Positions 118 to 30,027 of a stretch of DNA of 38,472 nucleotides are shown piece by piece. The translations under genes and the position numbers were made by a program. Each line of letters begins with the position of its first letter. Within the stretch, counting starts at the first letter, position 1. Source of the stretch: Candidatus Roizmanbacteria bacterium GW2011_GWA2_35_19 (GTDB taxonomy: Bacteria > Patescibacteriota > Microgenomatia > UBA1406 > GWC2-37-13); the NCBI GenBank assembly GCA_000990565.1, contig LBQC01000006.1:1-38472 (forward strand). The letters are read 5' to 3'. A model generated the notes under the pieces. That model saw only the letters and a program-made list of their open reading frames with translations. It made no database searches and was not told the DNA's origin.

Positions 118-2079
118 TTATTTGGCTTCAGGGCTTGCTTCTTTTGGTAGCTCCAGTCTTGGGTCAATTTGGGTAGTCGGTGGGGTCGGTAAATTCAAAC
201 TACTCGGTTGATTATCTATTTCCAATTGATTAACTTGATCTTCTTCTTTTGGAAGCATCTTTTTAAAATTTTCAAGCTCTTTTTCCACCTTTTCATAATC
301 TGCCTTATTAGCCTTTGAATCAAGTAATTTTAAAGTTGCCTGTAAAGCATTGACAGCCAAAGGATAATTTTTTTTCTGGAAATGAGCCCAAGCGTAGTTA
401 TAGTTAGCATTTGGCCAGTTAGGTTTAAGAGCAACTGCCTGCTCAAAAAATCTGAGAGCATCATCATATTTGTTTAAAGAATAATAAACTCCTCCGAGGC
501 CGACCCGGTAAACTGGGTTTTGCGGATCAGCGAGTATTGCCCTTTGATAAGCGGAGATTGTCCAAACATCAGCTCCCTTTGCAACGTTAATAATATTTGA
601 ATAAATCTGGGCCAACCCTTGCCAATTGCCGGCCTTTTGCGGATTTAAAGAAACAACCGCTTTCGCCTCGGCAATTGATGATTGAATGGCCTGGGTAATT
701 ATTTGACGGTCTTGTTCAGTAATTTTTTTTGTATTTTTTTGAACAAGATTATTAGCGATCAAAAGATTTGTCTGGGCAAAGTTACTTCTAAATCTTTCAA
801 TAAAAGGATTTAAAATAATTGCTTGCCTTTGGCTGTCATAGACAACCTTAGCGTTATTGGCAACTACTCCGTTGATTGATTTTTTGAAAAAATATTCAGA
901 TGCGTATGATCGGCCAAGAAGATAACCAGATGAACCTACTAAACCCAAAGAAATAACAACGATGCCAAGATAGATAGGTAATAGATCTGATAAATCAATT
1001 GTAGAGACAGTGACCTGTACATGGTAATTTATTAAACCCAACGTTACAAAAAATAAAAACCAAACGATTAATGAAGGAGGGAGGAAAAATAAACAAATAA
1101 GCAAATAAACAAATAAATAAATGAATTGCTTCATTGTTTCATTGCTCCATTGTTTGATTGTTTGTTTGAACACCGAAAAAACCAACAGACCAAACGTCAA
1201 TAAACCAAAAATACCGGTTTCGGTGAGAATTTGCAAAATAGCCGAACGGGAAAGATTAAATGAATGAACCTGCCACAAAGCCGATTGATTATAAGCAAAA
1301 TCTTTTACACGAGTGAAAATTGCCGAAAAATTATCGGGACCGATACCAAATATGGCCGTCTGTGGATTTTTTAAGATCTCCAGGGCGGCGAACCAGGAAA
1401 GCCGGAACGGAGGTAATAGGAACCCACCTTCGCCAAGGCTTCGGCGGGCAAAGAGAGAATAAACAATTAGAAAAAGGGCGAGGAAATTGATAATCAATGT
1501 CATCCCCCTGAAAAGGGGGATCCAGGAAATTTTAGTCTGGATTCCCTCCTTCGAGGGAATGACATGGGGACGTAGGAATGACACAATTCCCCAAACAACA
1601 AAAAAACCTAATAATATATAAAAGACGATTGTTGTCAAAGAAAGAATAAGAGAAGAAACCTTCGTTATATAAGGTCCGACCTTATCAGATAAGGACGAAC
1701 CTTTCTGATGGGATAAATAGAAATACAAAATTACCAACGAAATCATCGCTACCAATCCAAAACTTGGATTTAACAATGCCTGGACTTTATTGATTGAGGA
1801 AAATAATGTAGATAAAATAACGGTCGTTAAAAAAAGAAGAATTGAGTTATCAAAAGAATTTTTTTCCCAAGAAATTTTTTTTGTAAAAACAATTTGAATT
1901 GTAGAAATAAAAATAAGTAACAAAACTCCAAACCCTAAAAAATATAACTTATTTGTCACAAAATATTCTTGTGTTGTATTAAGGAAAAAGAACGGAAACA
2001 AAAATATTAAGCCATTAAGAAGAAAAAAATTTATTTTTTGGAATATTTTTTCCATATTCAAAAACATAATATATAACAA
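118..2079 (-). CDS. O-antigen ligase/Wzy-like polytopic membrane protein with C-terminal TPR
   Basis: This is probably a glycan ligase or polymerase of the O-antigen ligase superfamily acting at the cytoplasmic membrane. The N-terminal two thirds hold multiple hydrophobic helices. A WaaL/Wzy-type block reads GIGPDNFSAIF, then WQVHSFNLSRSAILQILTET and GIFGLLTFG. Residues about 480-590 form TPR-like helices (PVYRVGLGGVYYSLNKYDDA, then FFEQAVALKPNWPNANYNYA). Two repeat-derived peptides are embedded: residues about 173-194 (VIPSKEG...PLFRGMT, from 1499-1563) and the KQTIKQWSNETMKQFIYLFV stretch (from 1088-1169). The 2079 start overlaps the upstream prepilin by 22 bp; ATGs at 2067 or 2055 are equally possible, and 2055 follows the prepilin stop. 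The prepilin gene lies directly upstream on the same strand. Substrate unknown. Confidence 0.72.
   Translation of the reverse strand: MLYIMFLNMEKIFQKINFFLLNGLIFLFPFFFLNTTQEYFVTNKLYFLGFGVLLLIFISTIQIVFTKKISWEKNSFDNSILLFLTTVILSTLFSSINKVQALLNPSFGLVAMISLVILYFYLSHQKGSSLSDKVGPYITKVSSLILSLTTIVFYILLGFFVVWGIVSFLRPHVIPSKEGIQTKISWIPLFRGMTLIINFLALFLIVYSLFARRSLGEGGFLLPPFRLSWFAALEILKNPQTAIFGIGPDNFSAIFTRVKDFAYNQSALWQVHSFNLSRSAILQILTETGIFGLLTFGLLVFSVFKQTIKQWSNETMKQFIYLFVYLLICLFFLPPSLIVWFLFFVTLGLINYHVQVTVSTIDLSDLLPIYLGIVVISLGLVGSSGYLLGRSYASEYFFKKSINGVVANNAKVVYDSQRQAIILNPFIERFRSNFAQTNLLIANNLVQKNTKKITEQDRQIITQAIQSSIAEAKAVVSLNPQKAGNWQGLAQIYSNIINVAKGADVWTISAYQRAILADPQNPVYRVGLGGVYYSLNKYDDALRFFEQAVALKPNWPNANYNYAWAHFQKKNYPLAVNALQATLKLLDSKANKADYEKVEKELENFKKMLPKEEDQVNQLEIDNQPSSLNLPTPPTTQIDPRLELPKEASPEAK
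1088..1169. repeat. AT-rich aaataaac-type repeat inside the wzy-like gene
   Basis: Near-tandem aaacaaataagcaaataaac units are followed by an inverted, related run (ttcattgtttcattgctcc, then ttgattgtttgtttg). The segment is in frame and on the minus strand encodes KQTIKQWSNETMKQ followed by the hydrophobic FIYLFVYLLICLFF. A closely similar repeat at 13908-14045 encodes the hydrophobic core of another protein's signal peptide. Confidence 0.65.
1499..1563. repeat. GTCAT-ended palindromic element, copy 1 (in frame in wzy-like gene)
   Basis: The 65-nt element begins gtcatccccctg and ends cgagggaatgac. Each half is itself a small palindrome (ccccctgaaaaggggg; ttccctccttcgagggaa). Its outer 27 and 25 nt match, base for base, the reverse complement of the copy at 4076-4138 inside the giant fibre gene; only the central 11-13 nt differ. 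It is read through without disrupting the frame. Confidence 0.9.
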
Positions 2080-2729
2080 CTAAGATCAGAATAGATAATT
2101 ATATCAGGAAAACTTTCCTTGCAGGTTGCATAATTACTTTTGCAGACATTACAACCTTGAACTGTTTCTCGGTATACGCTTTGTTCAGGTTGACATTCAA
2201 CAAATTGTGGAGTTGGAGTTGGGGCACTACTATTTCCAATGCTGGTATTGGGACTGGAAACTCCATAATTATAACTATAGTCCGGTTCAGGTCCACAACC
2301 ACCGGCGCATCCAACAGAAGCAATCACAGGATCGGCAGTATTGGACAAAGTCGTATAAATTCTATACCAGGATGGGCAACTGGCATCGTCGACTTGATAC
2401 AAATATTTTTTTATAGGTTGTTGAGGATCACAGGGAAGTTGTGAAAGGTATGGATTGAAATCCGGGGAGTTCGCATCATTACCGCAGATATTGCATGGAA
2501 TTACACCAGTATCGTTGTAGCAAATCTCACTTGGCCGGGGATAACAATCTTTATCGTTATAATAATCTTCTAAAACTTTACTTAGTTGAGCTAATTCCTG
2601 TTTTCTTTTAGTGTCTTGGCTTTTCTCTATTTGTTTTTTCGGATTAAGGGTGATTAGGGCAATTACTGCCAAAAGAATGATCAGACTAATGACGATCATA
2701 ATCTCCATGAGGGTAAACCCTTTTTTCAT
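2058..2729 (-). CDS. Type IV prepilin / pseudopilin-like protein
   Basis: The N-terminus MKKGFTLMEIMIVISLIILL is a textbook class III signal: processing is expected after Gly4, giving a mature protein that begins with Phe and has Glu at position 5, followed by a hydrophobic helix. The globular part (residues about 45-223) is Cys-rich (about 14 Cys, with CxxC-like pairs) and has a Ser/Thr/Pro linker near residues 155-172 (SSAPTPTPQ). It would be processed by a prepilin peptidase and assembled by type IV pilus machinery, neither of which lies in the window. Its start codon overlaps the stop of the upstream four-helix-bundle gene by 4 bp, so the two are probably translationally coupled. ComEA/ComEC genes 15 kb away suggest a link to DNA uptake. 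Confidence 0.88.
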   Translation of the reverse strand: MKKGFTLMEIMIVISLIILLAVIALITLNPKKQIEKSQDTKRKQELAQLSKVLEDYYNDKDCYPRPSEICYNDTGVIPCNICGNDANSPDFNPYLSQLPCDPQQPIKKYLYQVDDASCPSWYRIYTTLSNTADPVIASVGCAGGCGPEPDYSYNYGVSSPNTSIGNSSAPTPTPQFVECQPEQSVYRETVQGCNVCKSNYATCKESFPDIIIYSDLSCYILCF

Positions 2730-3355
2730 ACTTTTATTTTACTAATTCTTAATTTATTTTCCAGTGACTCAACTAATTTTCGAAGTAGCCAATCAGTTTT
2801 ATTAATTAGTTCTATAAAGATTTCGTAAGTCAAATCATGAGCAGTAACATTGTTTAAAGGAGGATAAAGGAGAGTTATAGGATGGTAATTAAAATCCTTT
2901 ATCTTCCTGTAATTTCCTTTATTCTCCTTTAATCCCTTATTCAATTCTCCAAGATTAATACCAATTCCTACCAAGCTTGATCCTGGGCTTGATTGAAGAA
3001 ATTTATCCTCGGTCAATTCCCTTACATCTCCCTTGACTTCCTCCAGACTTCCCTGACTGTAACCTATAAATTGAAGATATTCTGACGTGGTGGTCCTTTT
3101 ATAACCTTCCTCAATATTCCGGACAACGCTTCTTGCTGCGTCGTCTACTTGAGATTTTCTCCGGTATTCAGACTTTGGTAAGGACTCGGTAAATTTTCTA
3201 ATGAAAAATCGTAAAAGGACAGCATTAGACCAGGGTACAAGATATTTATAACCATCGGGATCGGTCCACGCCCGCGAACTGCTTTGAGGATTTTTTGTTT
3301 CTTCAATCTCCCTCAGAGTTTTTTCTACTAGCTGTTGTGAAATAGATTTATCCAT
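2726..3355 (-). CDS. Four-helix-bundle protein (23S rRNA-IVP/S23-like family)
   Basis: The signature of this family is visible at residues about 70-115: DDAARSVVRNIEEGYKR, then TTSEYLQFIGYSQGSLEEVK. Family members are small (about 110-130 aa), are often annotated as four helix bundle proteins, and have no established function. This one is longer (209 aa) because of an N-terminal extension with YLVPWSNAVLLRFFIRK and because a repeat element (2856-2943) adds a peptide at residues about 138-167 (LKENKGNYRKIKDFNYHP) in the predicted loop before the last helix. A sister copy of the repeat lies immediately upstream of its start (3358-3459). Confidence 0.8.
   Translation of the reverse strand: MDKSISQQLVEKTLREIEETKNPQSSSRAWTDPDGYKYLVPWSNAVLLRFFIRKFTESLPKSEYRRKSQVDDAARSVVRNIEEGYKRTTTSEYLQFIGYSQGSLEEVKGDVRELTEDKFLQSSPGSSLVGIGINLGELNKGLKENKGNYRKIKDFNYHPITLLYPPLNNVTAHDLTYEIFIELINKTDWLLRKLVESLENKLRISKIKV
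2856..2943. repeat. Family E hairpin repeat inside four-helix-bundle gene
   Basis: The left arm aaaggaggataaaggagagt pairs imperfectly with the right arm tcctttattctcctttaatc around ggatggtaattaaaatcc. The same arrangement occurs between genes at 3358-3459. Here it is read in frame. Confidence 0.8.
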
Positions 3356-3357
3356 AT

Positions 3358-3459
3358 CTCCTTGTCCTTTAAGTGATTTTAAAGGATTGTAAAGGAAAGT
3401 TAAAGGATGGTTTATTATCCTTTAGTTTCCTGTAGTCTCCTTTAATCTCCTTTAATTAA
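3358..3459. repeat. Family E hairpin repeat, intergenic copy
   Basis: This copy fills the gap between the giant gene and the four-helix-bundle gene and includes the giant gene's stop codon. The left half reads attttaaaggattgtaaagg and the right half tcctttaatctcctttaatt, around ggatggtttattatcc. It is the clear relative of the in-frame copy at 2856-2943. Confidence 0.8.
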
Positions 3460-6400
3460 TAATAAGCCAATTAAATTTAATTGGTACGGACGATGGTGTA
3501 TTAGAAATGACTTTAAAGTATGACTTGGTTCCAATAATTTTTTCTCCGACTGATAGTTGAGAGATAGAAACAGTTGAAGAAGTTGGAGTTAAATAAATCA
3601 GTGAGCTTTCTTTAATGTTGTTGTTATAAATTATAATTTCGCTGGAATTTTCCGGTAAAATTCCCAAGCCGGCGCTTGAGGTAGCCGTCTCAATCGCCGG
3701 GGCGAAGATCCCGTTTTGGGTAAAATTATCCGGGGCGGCGATCACGGCGGAATTAGTGGAGATATTGTTAATTGTTAAATTGTTGATTGCTAAATTGTTA
3801 ATTGTAACCTGTCCATCGTCTGTCAGTGGTTTGATTTCGTTCGTCCGTATCCCGCCTTCTGCAATTAGCTCACCCTTTGTGGTGATCGTTCCGTCTTTGG
3901 CGATTATCACCGCCCCGTCAAGCAGATTAATTGTTGAAAGAGCAGAAAGTTTTAATTCGGACGCTAGGGAAATAATTGAATTTTGATCAATTAGGGTGGT
4001 ACCAACGAGGAGGGAATTACTGACGGAAACGTTGTATAAATTGGAATTTCCGGTGACAGTTAGATTTTCAAAAGCGTCATTCCCTCGAAGGAGGGAATCC
4101 ATTTCTTGAGACTGGATCCCCCTTTTCAGGGGGATGACAGAAGATGAAATATTCTGGTAATTGGTCGGGTCGGGCATGGATTGATTCTGAATGTCCGCAA
4201 TTAACTTTTGGACATCATTGATATTTGATGATAGAGAATCAATTGTCCCAGATTCAATTTCACCGGCAATTAATTTCCCAGAAATTGAGGCCTCGTTGGT
4301 CGTTAACGTGTCTGAAGCGAGATTGCCAGAGACGGTCGCATCATTATCAATTTTCAGAGAATCGGCGATTATTTGCCCGGAAAATGAGGCATTACCAACG
4401 GCATCGATCACGACCGCTGATTTTCCTTCAAGGCCTTTGATGATTAATTTGGCTAATTTACCGGCATTAGGGTCGACACCGGGGTCGACCCCTACGTCGT
4501 CATTTAAATCAATTGTTAAATCACTGTTTTGCGGTTTTATTTCATTCGTTTGTACAATATTTAATTTGGCTGTTCCTGTTGCAATTAAATCCGTAGTTTC
4601 AACAACAGGTGAGACTATTTTTTCCTGGACTAAAATATTTTTCGCGACCAATAAATTATCAACTAATATATTTTCCGTCTCTATTAATCCTGACTTAATT
4701 TTCCCCACCATTAATTCTGAAAAGGCCCCTATGCGAGTAACTATCTCTCCGGTATTTAATTTAACATTGTAAATTTGATTATTGAAAATTGATTGAAAAT
4801 TTTCCGCCTGGTTTCCATCATAAACATACGGCGTTTGGCTATCGTTTTTTATCTGTAAATCACCCATTGAGGTAATATTCAAATCAGCTAGTTGGCCAGA
4901 AAGAGAAGAAATTTGTATTTGCTGTTCTTGGATAGCTTTTGTGAGGACGGGAATAAGACCTGTTGTATTGAGTTGTTTATATCCATTATCTTGATCAATA
5001 CTAACCAAATTAGGGATCAGCGTTTCAACTTCTTGGGCAATAAAACCAAGGTTTTTATAAATTGAAGCTCCGCTTTTCCAGTTAAAATCTACTGGTCTTA
5101 AGTTCATAATAGTATCTAGGCCAAAAGAAGTGTCTTCAATATCCTGTTTTAGCCGGACATCTGAAGTACAAGAAATAGTACCTCCAGTTGCCAAAGTACA
5201 ACCAGTGGTGTTATCACTTAAGAATCTGGCAATGACTCCATTTTCCGGAGCCAAAACATCAAGAAAGTATGCAGGTACTAATCGTCCAATACCCACTCTT
5301 CCAGTATCAGAAATAACAGTATTGACGGCTCTTCGATAGATATAAACATTATCAATATAACCGTTAAAATTAATGTCCGGAGTAAAAATTATATCTGTGT
5401 TATTGGCTGTAGCGTCGAAGGTAAGATCATATGATCCATTGGCACTAATTGCATCGTGAGCTGCCGTTCCAACTTTTGGAGTGACAGTGCCGGCTGTTCT
5501 TCCTCCCATATCAAAAGTCATTCTATATATTTGATTATTATCAATATAGCCGTCTGTTAAATTACAAGATAAATCTGCAGTATTTAATACGGTATGAAGG
5601 GCCGTCCCACCAGAACGAGCCCAGCCGGCACCGTATGTCCAGCATGTTGTAGCATTTGTGAAAGTAATATCATCAGCATCTTGGTCGTTAAGATTAGCTG
5701 ATTCGACCGCTTGAACCTCTATGGCGTTACCTGAAGGAGTATCAACATCAGCTAATATTTCTAATGTAGCCGTAGGTGCAGAAGTACCGATTCCGACGTT
5801 GCCGCCATTTGGTTGGATAATCACATAACTGGAAGTTTTTGTAGCATTACTAGTCCCGTCAAGAATAAGGTTTCCACTAGCAGCATTCGATCCATAGATA
5901 GTTGCATTATCAGCAGTAAAGGTAAGCTCGGTAGCCCCACCCCAAGCAACTGCAGATGAAGTTGTTAGTGTGGCAAGCGAGGAGGCGGTGATTGTAGTAC
6001 CACTAAGGGTAAGGTTACCTCCTAGAGATGTTAAGTTGTTTCCGGATACTGTGAAAGTGTTGTCTAGAGTTGTAGCTCCATGTAAAGTTAATGTTCCTGG
6101 AGTGGTGGTAGAACCAATAACGTTGACTGAAGAAGCTCCGGTTCCAAGCGTGGTGCTTCCCGTTGAATTAAGAGTACCAGCAACATCAAGTAAATAACTT
6201 GGAGTGGCGTCACCGATGCCGACGTTGCCTCCTGTAAAGAGGGCAGAGTAGGTAGCATTACTGAAAGTGGCAGTTCCAGTAAATGTATTGGCAGATGTAC
6301 CGGTTTGGGTGTAGACTCCATTATTTGTAATCCCTGTTATTCCGGTCATGGCTCCGGTAGTTGAAATATCCCAATCATTTGAGTTTAATGACAAGGTTCC

Positions 6401-9400
6401 TGCATTACCAATAGTAATAACATCTACACCGGTTGCGCCGGTGCCAATATTAATAGTGTCTATTCCAGTACCTGTACCAAGGTTTAAAGTTCTAGCTACG
6501 TTTGATGCCCCAACATTAATTATCTGGGAAGCATCAATAGAGTCAAGCGTTACGGTACCCGTAGTTGTTTGCAGGGTTAGACCTGTGGCGCCTAAAATAC
6601 CCAATGTTCCGTCGGCAGTGATATTGTCACCATTAACTGCCAGATCACCAGCAGTGGTAATATTACCCGTTGCCCCTGCGACCTGGAATAAATCGCCGTC
6701 ACCAACTGTGAAGGTGGCAAGCGGCGTGGTGTCACCGATCCCGACGTTGCCACCAATAGCTAATAGGGCATAACCAGATGTAGTTTCAAACAAGCCGGCC
6801 GTACCGCCCGCACTGGAATATCCCTGTACACCATATCCTGAAACGGTTGATCCAATGACTCCATTACCTGTACTGGAATATCCCTCGACACCGAAACTTG
6901 AACCTACTCCATATATGCCTGTTCCGCCGGTGCCATATACACCGTAAATAGAACCATCAGCGCGAACACCATGCGCTGTGCCTGCACCATAAATAGCAGC
7001 ATTGGAATCTCCAACTCCTCCAACACTTAATTTTGATAATGGGGCAGTCGTTCCAATCCCAACGTTTCCGCCAGCGAAAATTGCCGCATAATTAGCATCT
7101 GCTCCGGTTGGTGATTCTACATAAAGTCCGTATTTGGTGGAAGTTCCATTAGTTGATGAAGTACCATTGGCTATATATAAGCCATATTGGTTGACAGTAC
7201 CAAAATCTCCAGCATGAGACGCATTAGTCGTAATATATTCCCCATATACATGAGTAGTACCGGCTGTAGTTGGAGCGCCCCCGGTGCCGGTAATCGTATT
7301 GTATATTCCATAGACATTCTTTGTTGCTGCCGTATCCAAAGCTCCAGTGTTACTGACTTTGTTATAAATACCAAAATCAGTATTAGCTAATGCTATTGCG
7401 TCAGTCATATAATTAAAGATACCCGTTGAAGAATTAGCATTGGTTGAATTACTATTGATGGTTCTAATGTAAAGGTTATTTCCGCTTTGACCTACACCGG
7501 TTGTGTCAATAGTGGCTTCAGAATATATAAGACCCGTATTTGTACCACCAGAGTTTCCAACATCTGAGGCGATTTTTAATCCAGCGTCAGTCACTCCAGC
7601 TGTACCTCCTGAAGGACCGGTTATTACAAGTTGTGAGCCTGTGGTTAAGGCAGTGGCAGACAAAGTCAAAATATCACCGGTCGTGACAGAATTGGCTGTA
7701 ACTCCGGCAATAGTACCCGATGTACCAATGCCGGTGTTAGTTATCAGAAAATCCCCGCCCGTAGTTAATGTTGAATCAATATCGAGTTTAGCATCAGGTG
7801 AAAGATCATTTATTCCTATACTTCCGGCGATTAACAAAGAACTCCCAGTGTTAGCGGGATCAAGATAGTAAGAAGTGCTGGTTTTGTCGTAAAAAACCTC
7901 ACCGGTGACCGTGCCTGTAGTATCGATATTTCCAGAAGTATCAACTGAAAAAGCATCAGCTGTCCCGGCTTTAAGAGTCCCTGATGCGTCAAAATCTCCG
8001 GTCACAGCTATCGTCCCATTTGTATCATTATCTATTTTTTCTCCATTAGCAAAGGTAATATCTCCGCCTGCACCTGTGTTGAATGTTAACCCAGTTGTTC
8101 CTTGGATAACCAGATCTCCAAGTGCGGTTAAAGTTGTTGAAGAGAAAGTTGCATAATCAGTTCCTGATCCATCCTCAAGTGTAATAGTTCCGTCCGTTTG
8201 ATTATGTATCTGCTCAGCATTTTCAAGTTTTAATTCAGCCGTTCCAATATCCGCAGCATCAAAATTAATTCCATATGTGAAGTCGATCCCAGCTGCTCCA
8301 GTATCAAATCTGATGGCATTTTGCACCATATCATTACCATCATTATTAGCTAAAGTAAGAAGAGCATCTAAACCCTCATCAACATCACTAGCTCCATTGG
8401 TAGCTTGAGATAAGGAAAGGAGGACTTGATCCTGATCTCCTGTACCCGTCGTATCTTCTCCCTGAGCAGTCAAGCTAAAGTGCGTTGCTGCAGTATCAGC
8501 GCCTGAATCCCAGTTGAAAGTGCTATTGTAAGTCGCCATCGTCAAGGTTAGATCAGCAGCTGGGTTATCAATTTCATTCCAAGGGATGGTTCCCGAAAAT
8601 ATTCCATATATGGTTCCGTCAACTTCAAGATTTCCTTCAATATATAAATCATCATCACTATCTACATTTGAAGCTCCCGTGGTTGAATCTCCAATCACAT
8701 TGTAGGCAACGTCGGTTGAGCCGGAACCACCAATGTTTAAAACATCGCCGTCAGCCAATACAACCTGTTCAATAGTTCCTCCTCCGGCAGCGTCTATCGT
8801 CAAATCACCAGTTGATGAAACGGTAAAACCTGAATAAACAGTTCCGTCCGTATATGTTAGTCTTAACTGCTCTCCAGAAGTTGCCAAGGAATCCAGCTTG
8901 GCATCAGGGCCAGTTGTTCCAACACCAACACTCGCTGAACTACCAGAGAAAATATGATCACCATCAAATGGATTATAAGTTATTGTTCCATCCACTCCAA
9001 AAGTGATACCGGCATTGTAGTATTTGACTCCCGTTCCTGCCGCTCCTGTTAACTGTAAATCGTCGTTTGTATTTATTTCCCCAACAACTTGAAGTTTATA
9101 AGTAGGAGCTGTCGTTCCAATTCCCATATTTCCATTTTCCACAATCAAGCCATAGTTATTGGTAGCACCAGAGGCGGAGAAATAGCCACCGACGTTGGTG
9201 GAAGTGGTTCCGGTGTTGGTCACAGCAGAGTAGAGTCCATAGGCAGTATGGGAAGCATTGGCGTTGGTGCCTGATCGGCTGATATCCAAAAGTTTAGAAA
9301 CTCCACTGGCTCCTCCGGCTGTCGAGGTGGAGGATAAGTCAAACAAAGTACCGGTGGTTAAACCGGTGGAGGAAAGAGCAAAAGCATCTTCTGTTGTGAT

Positions 9401-11074
9401 TGAATCAAAAGTAAAGGCGGTGGTATAGCCGGCATGAGCCAGGGAGAGATTACCATCTGGGACGGTTAAAGCATTCCACTTTAAAGATGAAGCACTGATG
9501 GAATTACTCCAGCTCATATCACCAGTTGTATTTGAAGTCAGATAATATCCAGAAGCAGCTCCAGGAAAAGCATTAGGTAACTTATATACAGTATCTCCCG
9601 CTAAAGTATCCGGAGCCTGAAGACCTACATAGTTAGTTCCGGCTCCAGAGGGCTCTGCTAAACGCAAATCTCCTTGATTGGTAACGGTGGTATTTCCACT
9701 ACCGTCAATAGTTAATCGATTTTCCGTATCAGTTGAGCCGCCGGTCCGGAATTTTAGTGTTCCTGATTCAGTTGCCTGAAGGATTATATCCCCAGTTCCG
9801 GCTGATTGAATGACGGTGGCTTTAGCGCTTGATAAAGTAAAATCAGTTGATGCGGATGTTGATCTGATTCCTGGAGACGATGCTGCAATTAGCAGATTAC
9901 CGTCAACATTGATATAAGGAATATTGGAAGCGTCGGAGCCAGGGGGAAGCCCCTGTAGGGTTTCAGAATTTATAGCATAACCAACGTTGGCAATTTGCTG
10001 ACGGGGAGTCATTTCACTATCTGAAGCCACGGTTATTCCAAGATATACATCGGCATTCTCAGAAAAAATTGAAGAATCAACTTCAGTACCACAGACAGTC
10101 TGTGGCGGAGTTGGCGAGTACCCCGATCCACCGATTAAGACATTAAAAATTCCATCTTGATCAGGAGTCAGTGAGCAGGCCCCGGCCGTATATAATGCTG
10201 ATCCGCCTGATGAAACACTATATAGTTTGAAAGTTACATTGGTTGCAGTTGAAATAGGATTAGCTAAGCTGTCAGTCAGCCGACCCTGAAAAGAAAGTAA
10301 TCGGCCCGCTCGAGTAAGCCCGGTTGGATAAGCAAAAGCTTTCTCCGACTTTAGAAAAAATTGATTATATATCCCGGCACCCATTACAGAAACAAAGATG
10401 AGAATTATAATTAGGCCAATGTAATGTTGCAATCCAAAGTTAGAAGGAAGGTTTAGAAACGAGTTAGGAAGTTGGTTGATGGAAGCTTGATTCTTTTCTA
10501 ATTTCTTACTTCTATTTTCTTGACCCGCTTCAAAACCCACCCTCCAACTTCTAAACAGGCTTAATATTTTACTAAATAATTTAGGGCTTATTAAAGCCTT
10601 ATTAGGAGGGATTTGCTTGTCCTCTGTAGTTTTCTTGACCTTTGAAGCCTTGGCGAAAGAGGTAGCGTAGGAGGAATCTTTGATATTTGAGATTTTCTTA
10701 GCTGGGTTCTCCGTCATCCACCCTTGAGAAATACAGAACGAACAAAATTTCCTTAAAGCAGAAAGTCGACGGTTGATAGTTTTGTGAGGGAGGTTATTTA
10801 CAACAAGATAAGAGCGATATTTAAAAACAACCTCTGAGGTCATGTCATTTCGAAGAAGCCTCTCGACCTTGCTCGAGGTAAACTCCGCGACTGAGAAATC
10901 TGGATTTCTCGCTGTGCTCGAAACGACATCAGTACCAACGTAATGCTCTAACCAGCCTGCAAAATGACGAAAATCTGAGAGATAATTTTTTAATGTGATT
11001 TGAGAGACGTTTCCCGCAGTCAAGAAACTTTTGAATTGTGGCTCTAGATTATATAGATTATACCCTTCTTGCAT
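3452..11074 (-). CDS. Giant membrane-anchored fibre with recombinase-type N-terminal domain and S74 chaperone
   Basis: This is a 2540-residue mosaic. Residues 10-130 match the SAM-like core-binding domain of XerC/D-type tyrosine recombinases (ITLKNYLSDFRHFAGWL, then HKTINRRLSALRKFCSF), split by a repeat-coded insert at about 50-77. No catalytic R..HxxR..Y domain follows. Another repeat insert (about 173-213) precedes one transmembrane helix (about 217-239). The rest is beta-rich, with at least eight phage-fibre motifs of the form VGIGTTAPxxxLxV. Near residue 1971 an S74 intramolecular chaperone/peptidase begins with SDVRLKQDIED; Ser1971 and Lys1976 match the catalytic dyad spacing. About 480 further residues follow, with polymerising-type repeats. 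Expected topology: N-terminus in the cytoplasm, fibre outside. The promoter sits about 8 nt upstream of the ATG. The substrate or partner is unknown. Confidence 0.85.
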   Translation of the reverse strand: MQEGYNLYNLEPQFKSFLTAGNVSQITLKNYLSDFRHFAGWLEHYVGTDVVSSTARNPDFSVAEFTSSKVERLLRNDMTSEVVFKYRSYLVVNNLPHKTINRRLSALRKFCSFCISQGWMTENPAKKISNIKDSSYATSFAKASKVKKTTEDKQIPPNKALISPKLFSKILSLFRSWRVGFEAGQENRSKKLEKNQASINQLPNSFLNLPSNFGLQHYIGLIIILIFVSVMGAGIYNQFFLKSEKAFAYPTGLTRAGRLLSFQGRLTDSLANPISTATNVTFKLYSVSSGGSALYTAGACSLTPDQDGIFNVLIGGSGYSPTPPQTVCGTEVDSSIFSENADVYLGITVASDSEMTPRQQIANVGYAINSETLQGLPPGSDASNIPYINVDGNLLIAASSPGIRSTSASTDFTLSSAKATVIQSAGTGDIILQATESGTLKFRTGGSTDTENRLTIDGSGNTTVTNQGDLRLAEPSGAGTNYVGLQAPDTLAGDTVYKLPNAFPGAASGYYLTSNTTGDMSWSNSISASSLKWNALTVPDGNLSLAHAGYTTAFTFDSITTEDAFALSSTGLTTGTLFDLSSTSTAGGASGVSKLLDISRSGTNANASHTAYGLYSAVTNTGTTSTNVGGYFSASGATNNYGLIVENGNMGIGTTAPTYKLQVVGEINTNDDLQLTGAAGTGVKYYNAGITFGVDGTITYNPFDGDHIFSGSSASVGVGTTGPDAKLDSLATSGEQLRLTYTDGTVYSGFTVSSTGDLTIDAAGGGTIEQVVLADGDVLNIGGSGSTDVAYNVIGDSTTGASNVDSDDDLYIEGNLEVDGTIYGIFSGTIPWNEIDNPAADLTLTMATYNSTFNWDSGADTAATHFSLTAQGEDTTGTGDQDQVLLSLSQATNGASDVDEGLDALLTLANNDGNDMVQNAIRFDTGAAGIDFTYGINFDAADIGTAELKLENAEQIHNQTDGTITLEDGSGTDYATFSSTTLTALGDLVIQGTTGLTFNTGAGGDITFANGEKIDNDTNGTIAVTGDFDASGTLKAGTADAFSVDTSGNIDTTGTVTGEVFYDKTSTSYYLDPANTGSSLLIAGSIGINDLSPDAKLDIDSTLTTGGDFLITNTGIGTSGTIAGVTANSVTTGDILTLSATALTTGSQLVITGPSGGTAGVTDAGLKIASDVGNSGGTNTGLIYSEATIDTTGVGQSGNNLYIRTINSNSTNANSSTGIFNYMTDAIALANTDFGIYNKVSNTGALDTAATKNVYGIYNTITGTGGAPTTAGTTHVYGEYITTNASHAGDFGTVNQYGLYIANGTSSTNGTSTKYGLYVESPTGADANYAAIFAGGNVGIGTTAPLSKLSVGGVGDSNAAIYGAGTAHGVRADGSIYGVYGTGGTGIYGVGSSFGVEGYSSTGNGVIGSTVSGYGVQGYSSAGGTAGLFETTSGYALLAIGGNVGIGDTTPLATFTVGDGDLFQVAGATGNITTAGDLAVNGDNITADGTLGILGATGLTLQTTTGTVTLDSIDASQIINVGASNVARTLNLGTGTGIDTINIGTGATGVDVITIGNAGTLSLNSNDWDISTTGAMTGITGITNNGVYTQTGTSANTFTGTATFSNATYSALFTGGNVGIGDATPSYLLDVAGTLNSTGSTTLGTGASSVNVIGSTTTPGTLTLHGATTLDNTFTVSGNNLTSLGGNLTLSGTTITASSLATLTTSSAVAWGGATELTFTADNATIYGSNAASGNLILDGTSNATKTSSYVIIQPNGGNVGIGTSAPTATLEILADVDTPSGNAIEVQAVESANLNDQDADDITFTNATTCWTYGAGWARSGGTALHTVLNTADLSCNLTDGYIDNNQIYRMTFDMGGRTAGTVTPKVGTAAHDAISANGSYDLTFDATANNTDIIFTPDINFNGYIDNVYIYRRAVNTVISDTGRVGIGRLVPAYFLDVLAPENGVIARFLSDNTTGCTLATGGTISCTSDVRLKQDIEDTSFGLDTIMNLRPVDFNWKSGASIYKNLGFIAQEVETLIPNLVSIDQDNGYKQLNTTGLIPVLTKAIQEQQIQISSLSGQLADLNITSMGDLQIKNDSQTPYVYDGNQAENFQSIFNNQIYNVKLNTGEIVTRIGAFSELMVGKIKSGLIETENILVDNLLVAKNILVQEKIVSPVVETTDLIATGTAKLNIVQTNEIKPQNSDLTIDLNDDVGVDPGVDPNAGKLAKLIIKGLEGKSAVVIDAVGNASFSGQIIADSLKIDNDATVSGNLASDTLTTNEASISGKLIAGEIESGTIDSLSSNINDVQKLIADIQNQSMPDPTNYQNISSSVIPLKRGIQSQEMDSLLRGNDAFENLTVTGNSNLYNVSVSNSLLVGTTLIDQNSIISLASELKLSALSTINLLDGAVIIAKDGTITTKGELIAEGGIRTNEIKPLTDDGQVTINNLAINNLTINNISTNSAVIAAPDNFTQNGIFAPAIETATSSAGLGILPENSSEIIIYNNNIKESSLIYLTPTSSTVSISQLSVGEKIIGTKSYFKVISNTPSSVPIKFNWLIIN
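4076..4138. repeat. GTCAT-ended palindromic element, copy 2 (in frame in giant gene)
   Basis: The 63-nt inverted copy of the element at 1499-1563 has identical arms and a different centre. Because the orientation relative to the gene is reversed, it encodes a different peptide (VIPLKRGIQSQEMDSLLRGN) near residue 2320 of the giant fibre. Confidence 0.9.
10436..10558. repeat. Family D repeat inside giant gene
   Basis: The plus strand reads aaggtttagaaacgagttag in the left half and attttcttgacccgcttcaa in the right half. It encodes GFEAGQENRSKKLEKNQAS and continues to NLPSNF, just before the transmembrane helix. The acetyl-CoA synthetase gene carries the same element at 35020-35135, encoding GVEAGQENSEKKTEIN...NPSSNF. 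Confidence 0.85.
10844..10927. repeat. GTCAT-ended palindromic element in recombinase-like domain
   Basis: The 84-nt element has near-inverted ends gtcatttcga and tcgaaacgac and an inner palindrome (ctcgaccttgctcgag). It interrupts the SAM-like domain of the giant protein between HYVGTD and FKYRSYL, presumably in the loop between two helices. Confidence 0.8.
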
Positions 11075-12959: not shown

Positions 12960-14003
12960 TCAAATGCCTCTTTTTCGAAGTTGTGATTTAAGTTTCTCAA
13001 TCTCTTCCTTCTCTTTTTCAAGTGCTTTCTCTAATTCATTTTCCTTAACAGTGAAGTTCTTATAAAATTTGTTTATAAGCATACTCACAATTATAATCGC
13101 GAGGATGACGGCGGTCGCGACTCTCCATGGAAAGACCCAAACATAGGTGCTTTTCTCAAGCGCCTGGCCTGTAAGACCGTATGAGGCAGCTAAATCAAGA
13201 CGATATCGGCCCATCATCCACTTAGTGCCAAGTTCATTCTTAAAAGACCTTGATGTATCGGGGAAAATATTTTCTTCCGGGAGTCTTTTTTGGTCTACCA
13301 AGCCTCCGGTCATATTAGTAAGGCTAACAACCCCTCTTGGCCTTATATGATAGTCACCTCGATTTAAAATTTCGGTTTCAAGTGTAATCGGTCCATATTC
13401 AAAGAAGGACGGGGTAAAAAATCTTGAGACAATGGCCTTTTCAGCCGTAACACCTGCAACTTTAAGATAGACGAGAGCGGCAATTCTTGATCCGACCCCA
13501 GTTCCAGCCTCATTTATTCCACCGACCGCCTTTGGCACTTCAGGACCCGGCTCAAAATATACAGCTACATATCTTCCCCCTGGTCTTGCAGTCTCAGGCA
13601 CAGAAATAGTTGCCTGGATTGTGACTTTATCAGTCGCGGGAATGGTAATCCTATCATATGGTATTGTAAACCAACTAGCGCCGGAAAATTTTGGAGATGA
13701 GAGGGCGGGATTATCGATTATTACTGGTGTCCCATCAGTATCTTGGACGACAAAATCGGCGATTCTTAAAATTCCAGATACTGGCATTTCTCCAGAATTA
13801 TAAAATCGTACATTGATTGCCGATTTGCCACCCGGATCAACCTCAAGTTCCTGACGGGCCGGGGCCACAATAAGCGGCATGATTGATTGAGCCACTACTC
13901 CTTGGGAATAAACAAATAAACAAATAAACAAATAAACAAATAACAAAAAGACAGATTTGAGTTTTGAGACTTGAGTTTTGAGATTAATTTGTTTATTTTT
14001 CAT
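12960..14003 (-). CDS. DUF916-like surface anchor protein (Ig-like domains, TM helix, coiled-coil tail)
   Basis: A signal peptide (residues 1-39, ending VVAQS) is followed by two beta-sandwich domains. The first (about 42-185) has DPGGKSAINVRFYNSG, SGASWFTIP and ETARPGGRYVAVYF, the pattern I know from DUF916-type proteins that pair with WxL proteins in Gram-positives. The second spans about 190-288 (FFEYGPITLETEILNRGDYH). A TM helix lies at about 294-312, and a charged coiled coil at 318-345 would be cytoplasmic. The hydrophobic core of the signal peptide (LFVYLFICLFVYS) is encoded by the repeat 13908-14045, which also surrounds the start codon. The neighbour upstream (509 aa) is secreted, and a paralogous pair lies at 18994-20790. 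Proposed job: holding the secreted partner at the cell surface (inference). Confidence 0.75.
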   Translation of the reverse strand: MKNKQINLKTQVSKLKSVFLLFVYLFICLFVYSQGVVAQSIMPLIVAPARQELEVDPGGKSAINVRFYNSGEMPVSGILRIADFVVQDTDGTPVIIDNPALSSPKFSGASWFTIPYDRITIPATDKVTIQATISVPETARPGGRYVAVYFEPGPEVPKAVGGINEAGTGVGSRIAALVYLKVAGVTAEKAIVSRFFTPSFFEYGPITLETEILNRGDYHIRPRGVVSLTNMTGGLVDQKRLPEENIFPDTSRSFKNELGTKWMMGRYRLDLAASYGLTGQALEKSTYVWVFPWRVATAVILAIIIVSMLINKFYKNFTVKENELEKALEKEKEEIEKLKSQLRKRGI

Positions 14004-14045
14004 TTGATTATTTAATTATTTAATTATTTGTTTATTTGTTTATTA
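13908..14045. repeat. AT-rich inverted repeat around the DUF916-like start codon
   Basis: The left arm is a tandem of aaacaaat units (13912-13945); the right arm is ttatttgtttatttgtttat (14025-14045). The arms are complementary over about 20 nt. The start codon at 14001-14003 lies in the loop, so the mRNA could fold around it. The left arm is translated as part of the signal peptide. Confidence 0.8.
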
Positions 14046-15700: not shown

Positions 15701-16498
15701 ATGGGAATCAAAGAAAGACGGACGAAGATTTTACTTTCATTATTTTTAATTGCGGGCGTAGATTTTTCGGATGTTGCTATTGACGAAAGAATTCAAAAAG
15801 TATTTGATCTAACTCTAAACCAGAAGACAAGAGGGACTTTATCTGGGTTAATAAAAGAGGGGATGATAGAGAAAAGCACGGGTCATTCTGGGGAGGAGAC
15901 GAAGTCGACGACACCAGAATCAGCGCAAGATTCTGGACAAGCCAGAATGACATATCATTTAACCAATAGAGGGTTTGCGGAGCTGTCACTTGAGTTCTCG
16001 TTTTTTAGGTATCTTAAAGAAAAATGGGATGGCAAGTGGAGAATCATTTCATATGAGATTCCGGAAAAAAAACGAGAAATCCGCGATCGATTGCGACGTG
16101 AAATGCAGGGTTGGGGTCTTGGTCCATGGCATAGATCTTTTTGGCTGACACCTCATCCGATCATCGGAACCTTAAAAGAACTAGTCTCACAAAAAGAAGA
16201 GGAAAAATATATCCAGGCTTTTGAATCCGATCATTCATTTGGAGACCGTGAAATTTTAATTGAAAAAGTTTGGGGTAAGACAGAACTTGATAAATCCTAC
16301 AGAGCATTATTTAAAAAATGGCACGATGTGCTTTCATCAGACCTCCCAAAGACAGATAAATTTAAAAAAGTGATATCTGAATATGTCGATATTCTTCGTC
16401 AAGATCCAGGACTTCCAAAAGAGCTGGTCGGCGAGGGATGGATTGGGTTTGAAGGTTGGAATATCTTCAATGAGATTAAGAGCATATTACTCTCATGA
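15701..16498 (+). CDS. PaaX-like transcriptional regulator with Cas2-like domain
   Basis: The N-terminal region (residues about 5-95) is a winged-helix type domain (TLNQKTRGTLSGLIKEGMIE, later YHLTNRGFAELSLEF). The middle (about 105-180) matches the ferredoxin-like Cas2/PaaX domain: WDGKWRIISYEIPEKKREIR, then LRREMQGWGLGPWHRSFWL. The C-terminal part is helical. PaaX family members are DNA-binding repressors; CPR genomes often carry this version, for unknown targets. A GTCAT-ended repeat (15882-15951) adds HSGEETKSTTPESAQDSGQA in frame in the wing of the wHTH. It is divergent from surface locus 1 with a 128-bp shared promoter region, so it could regulate that locus. No cas1 or CRISPR is nearby. 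Confidence 0.8.
   Translation: MGIKERRTKILLSLFLIAGVDFSDVAIDERIQKVFDLTLNQKTRGTLSGLIKEGMIEKSTGHSGEETKSTTPESAQDSGQARMTYHLTNRGFAELSLEFSFFRYLKEKWDGKWRIISYEIPEKKREIRDRLRREMQGWGLGPWHRSFWLTPHPIIGTLKELVSQKEEEKYIQAFESDHSFGDREILIEKVWGKTELDKSYRALFKKWHDVLSSDLPKTDKFKKVISEYVDILRQDPGLPKELVGEGWIGFEGWNIFNEIKSILLS
15882..15951. repeat. GTCAT-ended palindromic element inside PaaX-like gene
   Basis: Perfect terminal inverted repeats gtcattctgg (15882-15891) and ccagaatgac (15942-15951) enclose a GC-richer centre. The 70-nt unit is translated between EGMIEKSTG and YHLTNRGF. Confidence 0.85.
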
Positions 16499-27827: not shown

Positions 27828-30027
27828 AACTCAAAGCAGCTTCAATAATCGCTCTTGCATCAATCTTTTCAAATCTGAGGAGTTCTTCGGAGGATCCGGA
27901 GCAGGGGATTTTGCGAACACAAAGATGGACAAAGTTTATGGACGATAGACGATTGATGGTAGATGATAGGGGTTGAGGATTGATGATAGAGGATCGATTT
28001 TTTTCTATCTTCGATTTTCTATCTTCTACACCTACCTTCCACTTTCTATCATCTATCGTCGTATTTAGCGCTGTTAACACAGCTTCACCGATACCACCGG
28101 CTGGGTAGTGATCTTCAACGACGATGATATTTGAATAATTCTTAGTTAGTTGGTTAAGGGTTACTTGGTTAATTGGTTTTACACAATATAAATCAACAAC
28201 GGTCGTTTCAATATTTTCTTTCGCTAGTTCTTTCTGAGCCTTCAAAGCTTCATGCAGTGTAATCCCCGCCGCAATGATTAGTGTTTTTGACTTTATGGAC
28301 TTTAAGGACCTTTTGACTTTATGGACTTTAAATCCACCGATTTCAAATTCTTCCTTTTCATCATAGATGATTGGTGTTTTTCCTCTCGTCGTCCTCATGT
28401 AAAAAATACCCTCATTTTCAGCCATTATTTTTGTTAATTTTTTTGTTGAAACTGAATCCGATGGATAAAAGATCACTGAATCCAAGATACTTCTCATCAT
28501 GGCAATATCTTCAAGACCCATCTGGGAGGGGCCGTCAGCTCCAAGTGAAACTCCTGCATGCGAACCAACAATTTTTATTCCCCCCATATAGTCATTTCGC
28601 GGGAGAGAAGCGACCGAGAAATCTAGCGAAGCGTTACGTCCCGATTTAATCGGGACTAGATCTCTCACGGAGCTTGTCCTGAGAGAAATCGAAGGGCTCG
28701 AGATGACACAAGGTGTTAGTGAATATTGCGCCATTCTAATTTGATCGAACGTCTGGGTTAAAAAAGCGGCAAAGGTCGATACAAAAGGTATATAACCCAT
28801 TTTTGAGAGCCCTAGTGCGACGCTCATCATATTTTCTTCAGCGATAAACATCTCAAAAAACCGGTCGGGAAAACGGGCCTGAAATTTACTTTCATAGGTT
28901 GAATTAGCGACCTCTGCATCAAGGACAACGATGTTGGGATTTTCCTCACCAAGTGAGACTAGAGCATCCCCATAAGCCTCCCGTGTAGCTATGTCAGTGA
29001 TTCGTGATAAGTGATTAATGATAAGTTTTTTGCTGTAATTTTCTAGTTTGTTTAAAACATTTTGAATTTTGGATTTTTGATTTGATTTTAAATTTAAAAT
29101 TTCAAATTGAAAATTTGGTTTAGCTATCTTTCCTCTAACCTTAAGGTCAAATTTTCCAAGTTCTTTCAAGGTAGACTTTAATTGATTTTCATCAAGTGTT
29201 TTTCCATGCCAATTTTCCTTATCTTCTAAAAACGACACTCCTTTACCTTTTATAGTTCTTGCAATAATCATTGTTGGTCGCTGGTCTTTTACCGTCCGTT
29301 TATTTTCTACTTCTTGAAAAGCCTTATCTATCTCTTTAAGGTTATGTCCATTGTTTACAATAATTGTTTTCCATCCGAAAGCTTCAATCTTTTTCTTATA
29401 GTCATATACATCCCATCCTTCTTCAGTCTCTCCTTGCTGGCCAAGTCGATTAACATCAATCATCCCGACAAGATTTGAGAGTTTATAATATGAAGCGATT
29501 TCCAAAGCCTCCCATACCTGTCCTTCAGCCATCTCAGAGTCACCCATTAATACCCATACTTTAGGCGTTCTTTTTATATTTGATCTTTGTCCGTCAGTTG
29601 GCGGATTGATCTTTAATCTTATTCCAAGTGCCATCCCGATTCCAACCGATAAACCTTGGCCTAGACTACCCGTTGCAACGTCGACATATGTAAAAACTGG
29701 ATTAGGATGACCTTGGAGGCGTGAACCAAATTTTCGAAGAGTCATTAATTCATCATATTTAATTGCTCCAGCTGCGTGATACAATGAATATAAAAGTGGA
29801 CTGGCGTGACCTTTTGATAAAATAAAACGATCATTAAGGACACTCCTCGCGTGTCTGAGATCAGATTTAAAGAATCCGCCAGCTGGCGGACCGCCAAAGA
29901 AAAGAGATGCCATGAGCTCAACGGCAGAAAGGGAAGATGTCGGATGGCCTGATCCAGCCTCAGACGTTGATGTTAAAATATCATAGCGAATTAGCCGACA
30001 TAAGTTTTTTAGCTTTTTTTCATCCAT
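27817..30027 (-). CDS. tkt: Transketolase carrying several repeat-coded inserts
   Basis: Thiamine-diphosphate enzyme of the non-oxidative pentose phosphate pathway. Motifs: SEAGSGHPTSSLSAVELMAS (His28), FILSKGHASPLLYSLY (His74), TGSLGQGLSVGIGMALG, VWVLMGDSEMAEGQVWEALE (the TPP motif, GDS instead of GDG), and in the pyrimidine domain FFEMFIAEENMMSVALGLSK and GIKIVGSHAGVSLGADGPSQ. The 736 aa exceed the common 610-670 because of inserts at about 46-52 (GPPAGGF), 140-155 (NPPTDGQRSNIKRTP), 302-346 (NFQFEILNLKSNQKSKIQN...), 441-479 (GTCAT element), 565-581 (VHKVKRSLKSIKSK) and 652-696 (family C). All keep the frame, so the enzyme is probably made. Its start is 33 bp from the divergent GGDEF gene. 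Confidence 0.93.
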   Translation of the reverse strand: MDEKKLKNLCRLIRYDILTSTSEAGSGHPTSSLSAVELMASLFFGGPPAGGFFKSDLRHARSVLNDRFILSKGHASPLLYSLYHAAGAIKYDELMTLRKFGSRLQGHPNPVFTYVDVATGSLGQGLSVGIGMALGIRLKINPPTDGQRSNIKRTPKVWVLMGDSEMAEGQVWEALEIASYYKLSNLVGMIDVNRLGQQGETEEGWDVYDYKKKIEAFGWKTIIVNNGHNLKEIDKAFQEVENKRTVKDQRPTMIIARTIKGKGVSFLEDKENWHGKTLDENQLKSTLKELGKFDLKVRGKIAKPNFQFEILNLKSNQKSKIQNVLNKLENYSKKLIINHLSRITDIATREAYGDALVSLGEENPNIVVLDAEVANSTYESKFQARFPDRFFEMFIAEENMMSVALGLSKMGYIPFVSTFAAFLTQTFDQIRMAQYSLTPCVISSPSISLRTSSVRDLVPIKSGRNASLDFSVASLPRNDYMGGIKIVGSHAGVSLGADGPSQMGLEDIAMMRSILDSVIFYPSDSVSTKKLTKIMAENEGIFYMRTTRGKTPIIYDEKEEFEIGGFKVHKVKRSLKSIKSKTLIIAAGITLHEALKAQKELAKENIETTVVDLYCVKPINQVTLNQLTKNYSNIIVVEDHYPAGGIGEAVLTALNTTIDDRKWKVGVEDRKSKIEKNRSSIINPQPLSSTINRLSSINFVHLCVRKIPCSGSSEELLRFEKIDARAIIEAALSFKS
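27941..28072. repeat. Family C repeat inside transketolase
   Basis: Plus-strand gacgatagacgattgatggt and gataggggttgaggattgat face tttctatcttctacaccta and ctttctatcatctatcgtcg. It encodes VEDRKSKIEKN and NPQPLSSTINRLSS; acetyl-CoA synthetase has VEDRKLKIENQ and NPQPLSSTIDPLSS from its own copy. Confidence 0.9.
28286..28335. repeat. Family F repeat inside transketolase
   Basis: ttgactttatggactttaag then gaccttttgactttatggac. It is read as KVHKVKRSLKSIKSK. Intergenic relatives are at 18866-18930 and 23780-23877. Confidence 0.7.
28591..28707. repeat. GTCAT-ended palindromic element inside transketolase
   Basis: The 117-nt (39-codon) element starts gtcatttcgcgg and ends gggctcgagatgac, with an inner perfect palindrome gtcccgatttaatcgggac. 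It is inserted between CVI and the conserved GGIKIVGSHAG block. Confidence 0.88.
29003..29125. repeat. AT-rich repeats inside transketolase linker
   Basis: tgattcgtgataagtgatta is followed by ttttgaattttggatttttg and aaatttaaaatttcaaattg. It lies in the linker between the TPP and pyrimidine domains, where an insertion should be least harmful. Confidence 0.65.

Follow-up and report, generated by a model that had tools for sequence, protein, structure and literature searches.

Head-to-head CGTC-tagged REP dimers inserted in frame in genes of a Roizmanbacteria genome, and a GIY-YIG nuclease element as their probable source

The window analysed here, the whole 38,472-nucleotide stretch of contig LBQC01000006.1 (positions 1 to 38,472; assembly GCA_000990565.1) from Candidatus Roizmanbacteria bacterium GW2011_GWA2_35_19, carries short inverted repeats within unrelated protein-coding genes. 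We show that these are head-to-head dimers of CGTC-tagged repetitive extragenic palindromic (REP) hairpins, and we propose that they derive from a small element encoding a GIY-YIG nuclease and were inserted into three genes of the window, an explanation to which, taken as a whole, we assign a probability of about 0.6. The window dimers are most likely internally deleted, non-autonomous derivatives of this element, their differing centres being different deletion remnants. REPs are among the commonest bacterial repeats, and the spread of the CGTC half has been an open question since 2013, when CGTC repeats were described as not associated with transposase genes and as having no dedicated transposase (PMC3733652). 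A small nuclease enclosed by REP arms would be a testable mobility candidate in culturable organisms.

The original prediction was of one palindromic element present in two genes in opposite orientation, with identical arms of 27 and 25 nt and a differing centre. Two copies do lie at the predicted places, 1498-1564 and 4075-4139, mutually inverted and in frame in both genes, with centres of 11-13 nt as the sole difference. Identity of the arms is complete across 28 nt (1498-1525 and 4112-4139) and 26 nt (1538-1563 and 4076-4101), slightly further than predicted, and no such matches are expected by chance in dinucleotide shuffles. Although the repeat is real, it is not a single palindrome, given that each copy consists of two distinct hairpins placed head to head, GTC-ATCCCCCT-GAAA-AGGGGGAT-CCAG and GTC-ATTCCCTC-GAAG-GAGGGAAT-CCAG. 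The first copy begins with a CGTC/TGTC-tagged REP unit of the C-type arm (GTCATCCCCCTGAAAAGGGGGATCCAG) at 1498-1525 on the forward strand, with an 8-bp stem and a 4-nt loop, which matches 4112-4139 on the reverse strand. It continues with a shortened spacer at 1526-1537 and closes with a T-type unit (GTCATTCCCTCGAAGGAGGGAATCCAG) at 1538-1564 on the reverse strand. The second copy runs the other way, with a T-type unit at 4075-4101 (forward), a shortened spacer unlike that of the first copy at 4102-4111, and a C-type unit at 4112-4139 (reverse). A wider scan found a third intragenic head-to-head dimer at 15881-15952, in a PaaX-like gene. Its units lie at 15881-15920 on the forward strand (GTCATTCTGG...CCAGAAT, with a 22-nt loop) and at 15930-15952 on the reverse strand (GTCATTCTGGCTTGTCCAGAAT), and it is atypical in having 7-bp stems, one loop of 22 nt and the tails CAG and CTT instead of CCA.

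The anatomy is that of the CGTC-1 type, which has a TGTC or CGTC tag, an 8-bp stem starting with AT, a 4-nt loop, a CCA tail and head-to-head heterodimers. Both of the first two window copies have 8-bp stems and 4-nt loops, and all four of their units carry the CCA tail. Of 44 dimers, 39 have T and 4 have C as the tag base at -1, followed by GTC. Stem pairs 1-2 are the expected A-T and T-A in 39 of 39 distinct units, the units having been found with that pattern, and pairs 6-8 vary with Watson-Crick pairing kept in 36-37 of 39. Single-stranded dimers are predicted to form a clover-like four-way fold (z -3.2 to -4.4), a form also proposed for REPINs (PMC3116915). An Rfam search gave no match to the insert. 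The CGTC REP super-family includes the dRS3 repeats of Neisseria and RPE-6 and RPE-4 of R. conorii (PMC3733652), so the suggested analogy with rickettsial palindromic elements (RPEs) turns out to be more than an analogy. Composite arms, CGTC hairpins whose loop encloses a string of 18-24 nt, were seen at five loci.

Three host genes carry the dimers. The first (118-2079, reverse strand) encodes a TPR/Wzy-like membrane protein of 653 amino acids with the in-frame insert VIPSKEGIQTKISWIPLFRGMT at residues 173-194; the second (3452-11074, reverse strand) a fibre-like protein of 2540 amino acids with a Peptidase_S74 chaperone and the in-frame insert VIPLKRGIQSQEMDSLLRGND in a variable linker; the third (15701-16498, forward strand) a PaaX-like regulator with the in-frame insert GHSGEETKSTTPESAQDSGQARMT upstream of the PaaX central domain. 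The inserted peptide is absent from every orthologue checked (29 of 29 Wzy-like, 16 of 16 fibre and 24 of 24 PaaX), which indicates that the window copies are derived insertions. They sit in a variable linker or loop in the fibre and PaaX proteins, and less cleanly so in the Wzy-like protein. Additional in-frame copies in the same genome lie in TsaD, GatB, an Aminotran_5 enzyme and a DUF2298 protein. For TsaD, GatB and Aminotran_5 the insert is absent from most orthologues, several of which hold other repeat-derived peptides in that loop, and the GatB peptide is missing from the orthologues compared. CGTC-type insertions in TsaD occur in this genome (G000) and in G016, G017 and G048, mostly in two loops; the second-loop insertion is common to G000 and G016, with one arm altered, and is found in G016 alone among relatives. 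Derived in-frame insertion into gene loops is demonstrated at the level of the loop, not to the base. The inference of mobility drawn earlier from conserved arms is supported; its recency is not, the TsaD insertion being shared with another species. Had all orthologues kept a conserved peptide, or had the arms been found nowhere else, that inference would have failed; instead the orthologues are empty and related units occur genome-wide. The GatB, TsaD and PaaX-like loops of relatives also bear other low-complexity or repeat-derived peptides, as if insertions from more than one repeat family, indeed from several, were tolerated there.

An insert of this kind could be kept for its function, as a gene-regulating RNA hairpin or a useful peptide. 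The paired changes that conserve the stems would fit this, as would the fact that all eight dimers examined in open reading frames (ORFs) are read in the VIP frame. However, the orthologues manage without the insert, the host genes are unrelated, Rfam holds no match and the bias towards one frame is weak (P 0.02) and was set aside as a pointer to selection on the peptide; we regard a functional explanation as scarcely credible. The earlier suggestion that the hairpin rather than the peptide is conserved agrees with the pairing-preserving stem changes, but the changed centres are better explained by differing internal deletions than by hairpin selection alone.

The search of the whole genome found the exact arm pair in the window only, yet there are 25 strict family units in the assembly, which comprises 1.12 Mb in 52 contigs and is 86.7% complete; with GatB as query, its nearest named relatives among the matches were Candidatus Roizmanbacteria (Patescibacteria). 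Counting this genome, 27 of the 57 searched have strict units, and the highest number in any one is 111; as loci from other genomes were in part selected by similarity, rates there are indicative. A C-type arm (ATCCCC) is paired with a T-type arm (ATTCCC) in 9 of 9 dimers of this genome and in 36 of 37 overall, the latter figure being partly ascertained. Long-spacer dimers share a conserved spacer that typically starts with CCAGTCTATAATTAC and ends with ATTTAGTCTGG. The window copies appear to retain remnants of this spacer, the first its right end (GAAATTTTAGTCTGG, which extends into the next unit) and the second its left end (CCAGTCT, read C to T), and such different remnants would explain why the arms agree while the centres differ. 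For the GatB dimer we considered a captured host sequence as the spacer (DKKGNN, compared with KKGEK in relatives) and dropped it, given that it matches a shortened family spacer. The mean number of open frames, out of 6, is 2.9 for short-spacer and 1.2 for long-spacer dimers (P 1e-6), which suggests that the shortened forms are more often readable through. Short spacers are found in 8 of 9 intragenic and 15 of 35 extragenic dimers (Fisher P 0.02, rank test P 0.07, under biased sampling), a contrast less firm than the one in open frames.

The head-to-head arrangement is shared with REPIN dimers (PMC3116915), and a Y1 transposase of this genome (IS200/RAYT-type) might move REPIN-like dimers here. 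Five Y1_Tnp genes are present in the genome and Y1 genes occur in 44 of the 57 genomes searched. However, inward-facing CGTC units flank 0 of 43 Y1 genes and a canonical unit lies within 600 bp of only 1 of 43, genomes with Y1 but no units and genomes with units but no Y1 both exist, PMC3733652 found no association either, and the tag is TGTC/CGTC rather than GTAG-type. We consider a Y1 mover highly improbable. Three Y1 loci in the genus have other palindromes nearby (GGTCAGACCCT...AGGGTCTGACC), which are unlike CGTC units.

A gene enclosed by an arm pair was found twice in a search for this arrangement, on G000 contig C48 and G013 contig C3, with the same small ORF between the arms. It encodes a GIY-YIG nuclease (PF01541, E 2.6e-17) of about 97 amino acids, with conserved Tyr, Arg and Glu in the alignment, and the element on G000 contig C48 is apparently intact. 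Three further genes of this subfamily, in G016, G013 and G015, came from a profile search of the sampled sequence. Each of the five genus copies is closely bracketed by inward-facing CGTC arms, four by an automatic flank rule and the fifth through a composite arm; the same rule is passed by 0 of 10 other GIY-YIG genes in the sampled candidate phyla radiation (CPR) sequence and by 3 of 20,000 random 295-nt segments. Between the arm and the start codon the element has a leader (CCAGTCTATAATTACTTTATAATG in G013), and after the stop codon a trailer (TTATAAGGAATATTTAGTCTGG). The dimer spacer matches these two in its left and right half respectively, so that a plain dimer looks like the element minus its gene; the right part of the first window spacer resembles the 3' trailer, and the second window spacer keeps CCAGTCT of the 5' leader. 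The new observation, at sequence level, is that the conserved spacer of extragenic dimers appears to equal the 5' and 3' ends of a GIY-YIG element lying between the same two arms; that long-spacer dimers represent the nuclease element without its ORF is well supported by this similarity. The nuclease was not found in viral contigs and phage records.

Outside the CPR, a tblastn search with the G000 protein against a plasmid collection, which includes some chromosome-sized records, matched 34 records, many of them belonging to genera that PMC3733652 lists as CGTC hosts, Neisseria and Azospirillum among them. The flank rule is passed at 10 of 20 loci examined outside the genus, several of which are near-identical strains, and by 1% of off-gene segments of the same non-CPR loci. 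The passing loci are proteobacterial and lie in Aeromonas, Azospirillum lipoferum (with the nuclease gene between sufB and sufC), Neorhizobium, Rhizobium CIAT894, two Shinella, Novosphingobium and three Sphingobium. By eye, the N. gonorrhoeae gene lies within a dRS3 array, and related variant repeats are found near the nuclease genes of Planktothrix and Spirosoma. The Radiobacillus gene, in a yazA-like position beside rsmI, has no such repeats and is a fitting negative. The neighbours of the Planktothrix gene are an MmeI-type restriction gene on one side and DISARM drmA on the other.

These data suggest a parent element of about 400 bp, composed of a C-type arm, a short leader, the gene for the nuclease of about 97 amino acids, a short trailer and a T-type arm. 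Internal deletion of this parent would account for the window dimers, which were inserted into the three genes without target duplication and would owe their retention to an unbroken frame and a variable or tolerant loop. The nuclease may drive this mobility, perhaps by acting on the folded dimer (a single strand in the four-way clover) and so leading to copying or joining at new sites; the window copies may have been mobilised in trans or left behind as deletion derivatives. Extended further, a minimal mobile element with this nuclease as its single gene would have the CGTC REPs as its terminal hairpins, and the dimers of Patescibacteria and Proteobacteria, intragenic ones included, its deletion derivatives, a generalization that we put slightly below even odds.

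No target duplication of 3-8 nt was found among 44 dimers, duplications of 1-2 nt are at chance level, and the dimer is preceded by T in 39 of 44 and followed by A in 40 of 44. Together with the nested insertions seen in hairpin loops, the missing duplication would suit spread with no dedicated enzyme, by template switching or hairpin-primed repair; this would leave the C/T pairing rule, the conserved spacer and the nuclease between the arms unexplained, and we think it very unlikely. The main rival is that the nuclease is a homing-type passenger in the spacer of pre-existing REP dimers, the long-spacer dimers being empty sites and the REPs having another mover. The same anatomy would be expected, GIY-YIG domains are known in homing endonucleases (PMC1564403), and the sampled sequence holds far more plain dimers than nuclease copies. 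However, in several taxa the arms around the nuclease are of the local CGTC type, as long co-evolution would predict, and a passenger would leave CGTC REPs without any mobility enzyme, so we hold this rival to be unlikely, if the most serious one. Descent of the dimers from the nuclease element remains our preferred explanation, and several points weigh against it: the nuclease could be just such a parasite, settled between existing REP arms; no mobility has been observed; outside the genus, only every second GIY-YIG homologue passes the automatic flank rule; the nuclease frame is truncated in one of the five genus copies (G013 C3); intact nuclease copies were sought in part of each genome only; similarity to a single C/T dimer was the basis on which many dimers from other genomes were collected; and the best relatives, at ~85% protein identity, are too diverged for a base-by-base alignment of filled and empty sites.

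Other features of the window lie beside the dimers. A second repeat family (CGCCAAGGCTTCGGCGGGCAAAG) is in frame in both of the first two host genes, at 1424-1451 and 10630-10662, where it contributes the peptides ARRSLGEGG to the Wzy-like ORF and SFAKASKVKKTTEDK to the fibre ORF, and a related string is found within composite CGTC arms (GAGCCGAAGGCTTCCC). The N-terminus of the fibre protein has a phage-integrase SAM-like domain (residues 63-128), which is odd given the S74 chaperone nearer the other end. A gene for a 23S rRNA intervening-sequence protein (PF05635) lies at 2726-3355, between the first two copies, and degenerate simple repeats (AAATAAACAAATAAAC; TTTTCTATCTTC) occur at 1079-1132, 13898-14044, 27941-28062 and 35729-35847, partly within predicted genes.

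Compared with known systems, the dimers agree with the CGTC REPs of Di Nocera 2013 (PMC3733652) in tag, 8-bp AT-starting stem, 4-nt loop, CCA tail, predominant head-to-head heterodimers and occasional intragenic copies, and differ in their Patescibacteria host, strict C/T pairing, conserved spacer and the nuclease gene between the arms. They share with RPE-4 and RPE-6 the super-family, as placed in PMC3733652, and in-frame insertion into unrelated genes, although those hosts belong to another phylum and the likeness is by description. In this streamlined genome TsaD and GatB have gained REP-derived peptides, which would extend protein evolution by palindromic inserts beyond Rickettsia and the few other bacteria reported. 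Like miniature inverted-repeat transposable elements, the dimers are short, have inverted ends and are probably non-autonomous derivatives of a longer element, but they show no target duplication and no DDE transposase was found. The nuclease has the GIY-YIG domain and the conserved Tyr, Arg and Glu positions of GIY-YIG homing endonucleases and of small standalone bacterial GIY-YIG proteins (PMC1564403), and differs from them in being 97 amino acids long, consisting of that domain only and being enclosed by REP arms; in the open-access literature, which leaves out preprints and most subscription journals, we found no paper linking GIY-YIG to repetitive extragenic palindromic sequences. The closest parallel is the REPIN/RAYT system (PMC3116915), which likewise has two inverted REPs with a spacer, a clover-like fold and a non-autonomous habit. 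It combines a GTAG tag with a Y1 transposase, whereas the dimers described here carry a TGTC/CGTC tag and are associated not with Y1 but with GIY-YIG, and if our explanation is true they are part of a nuclease-driven counterpart of that system.

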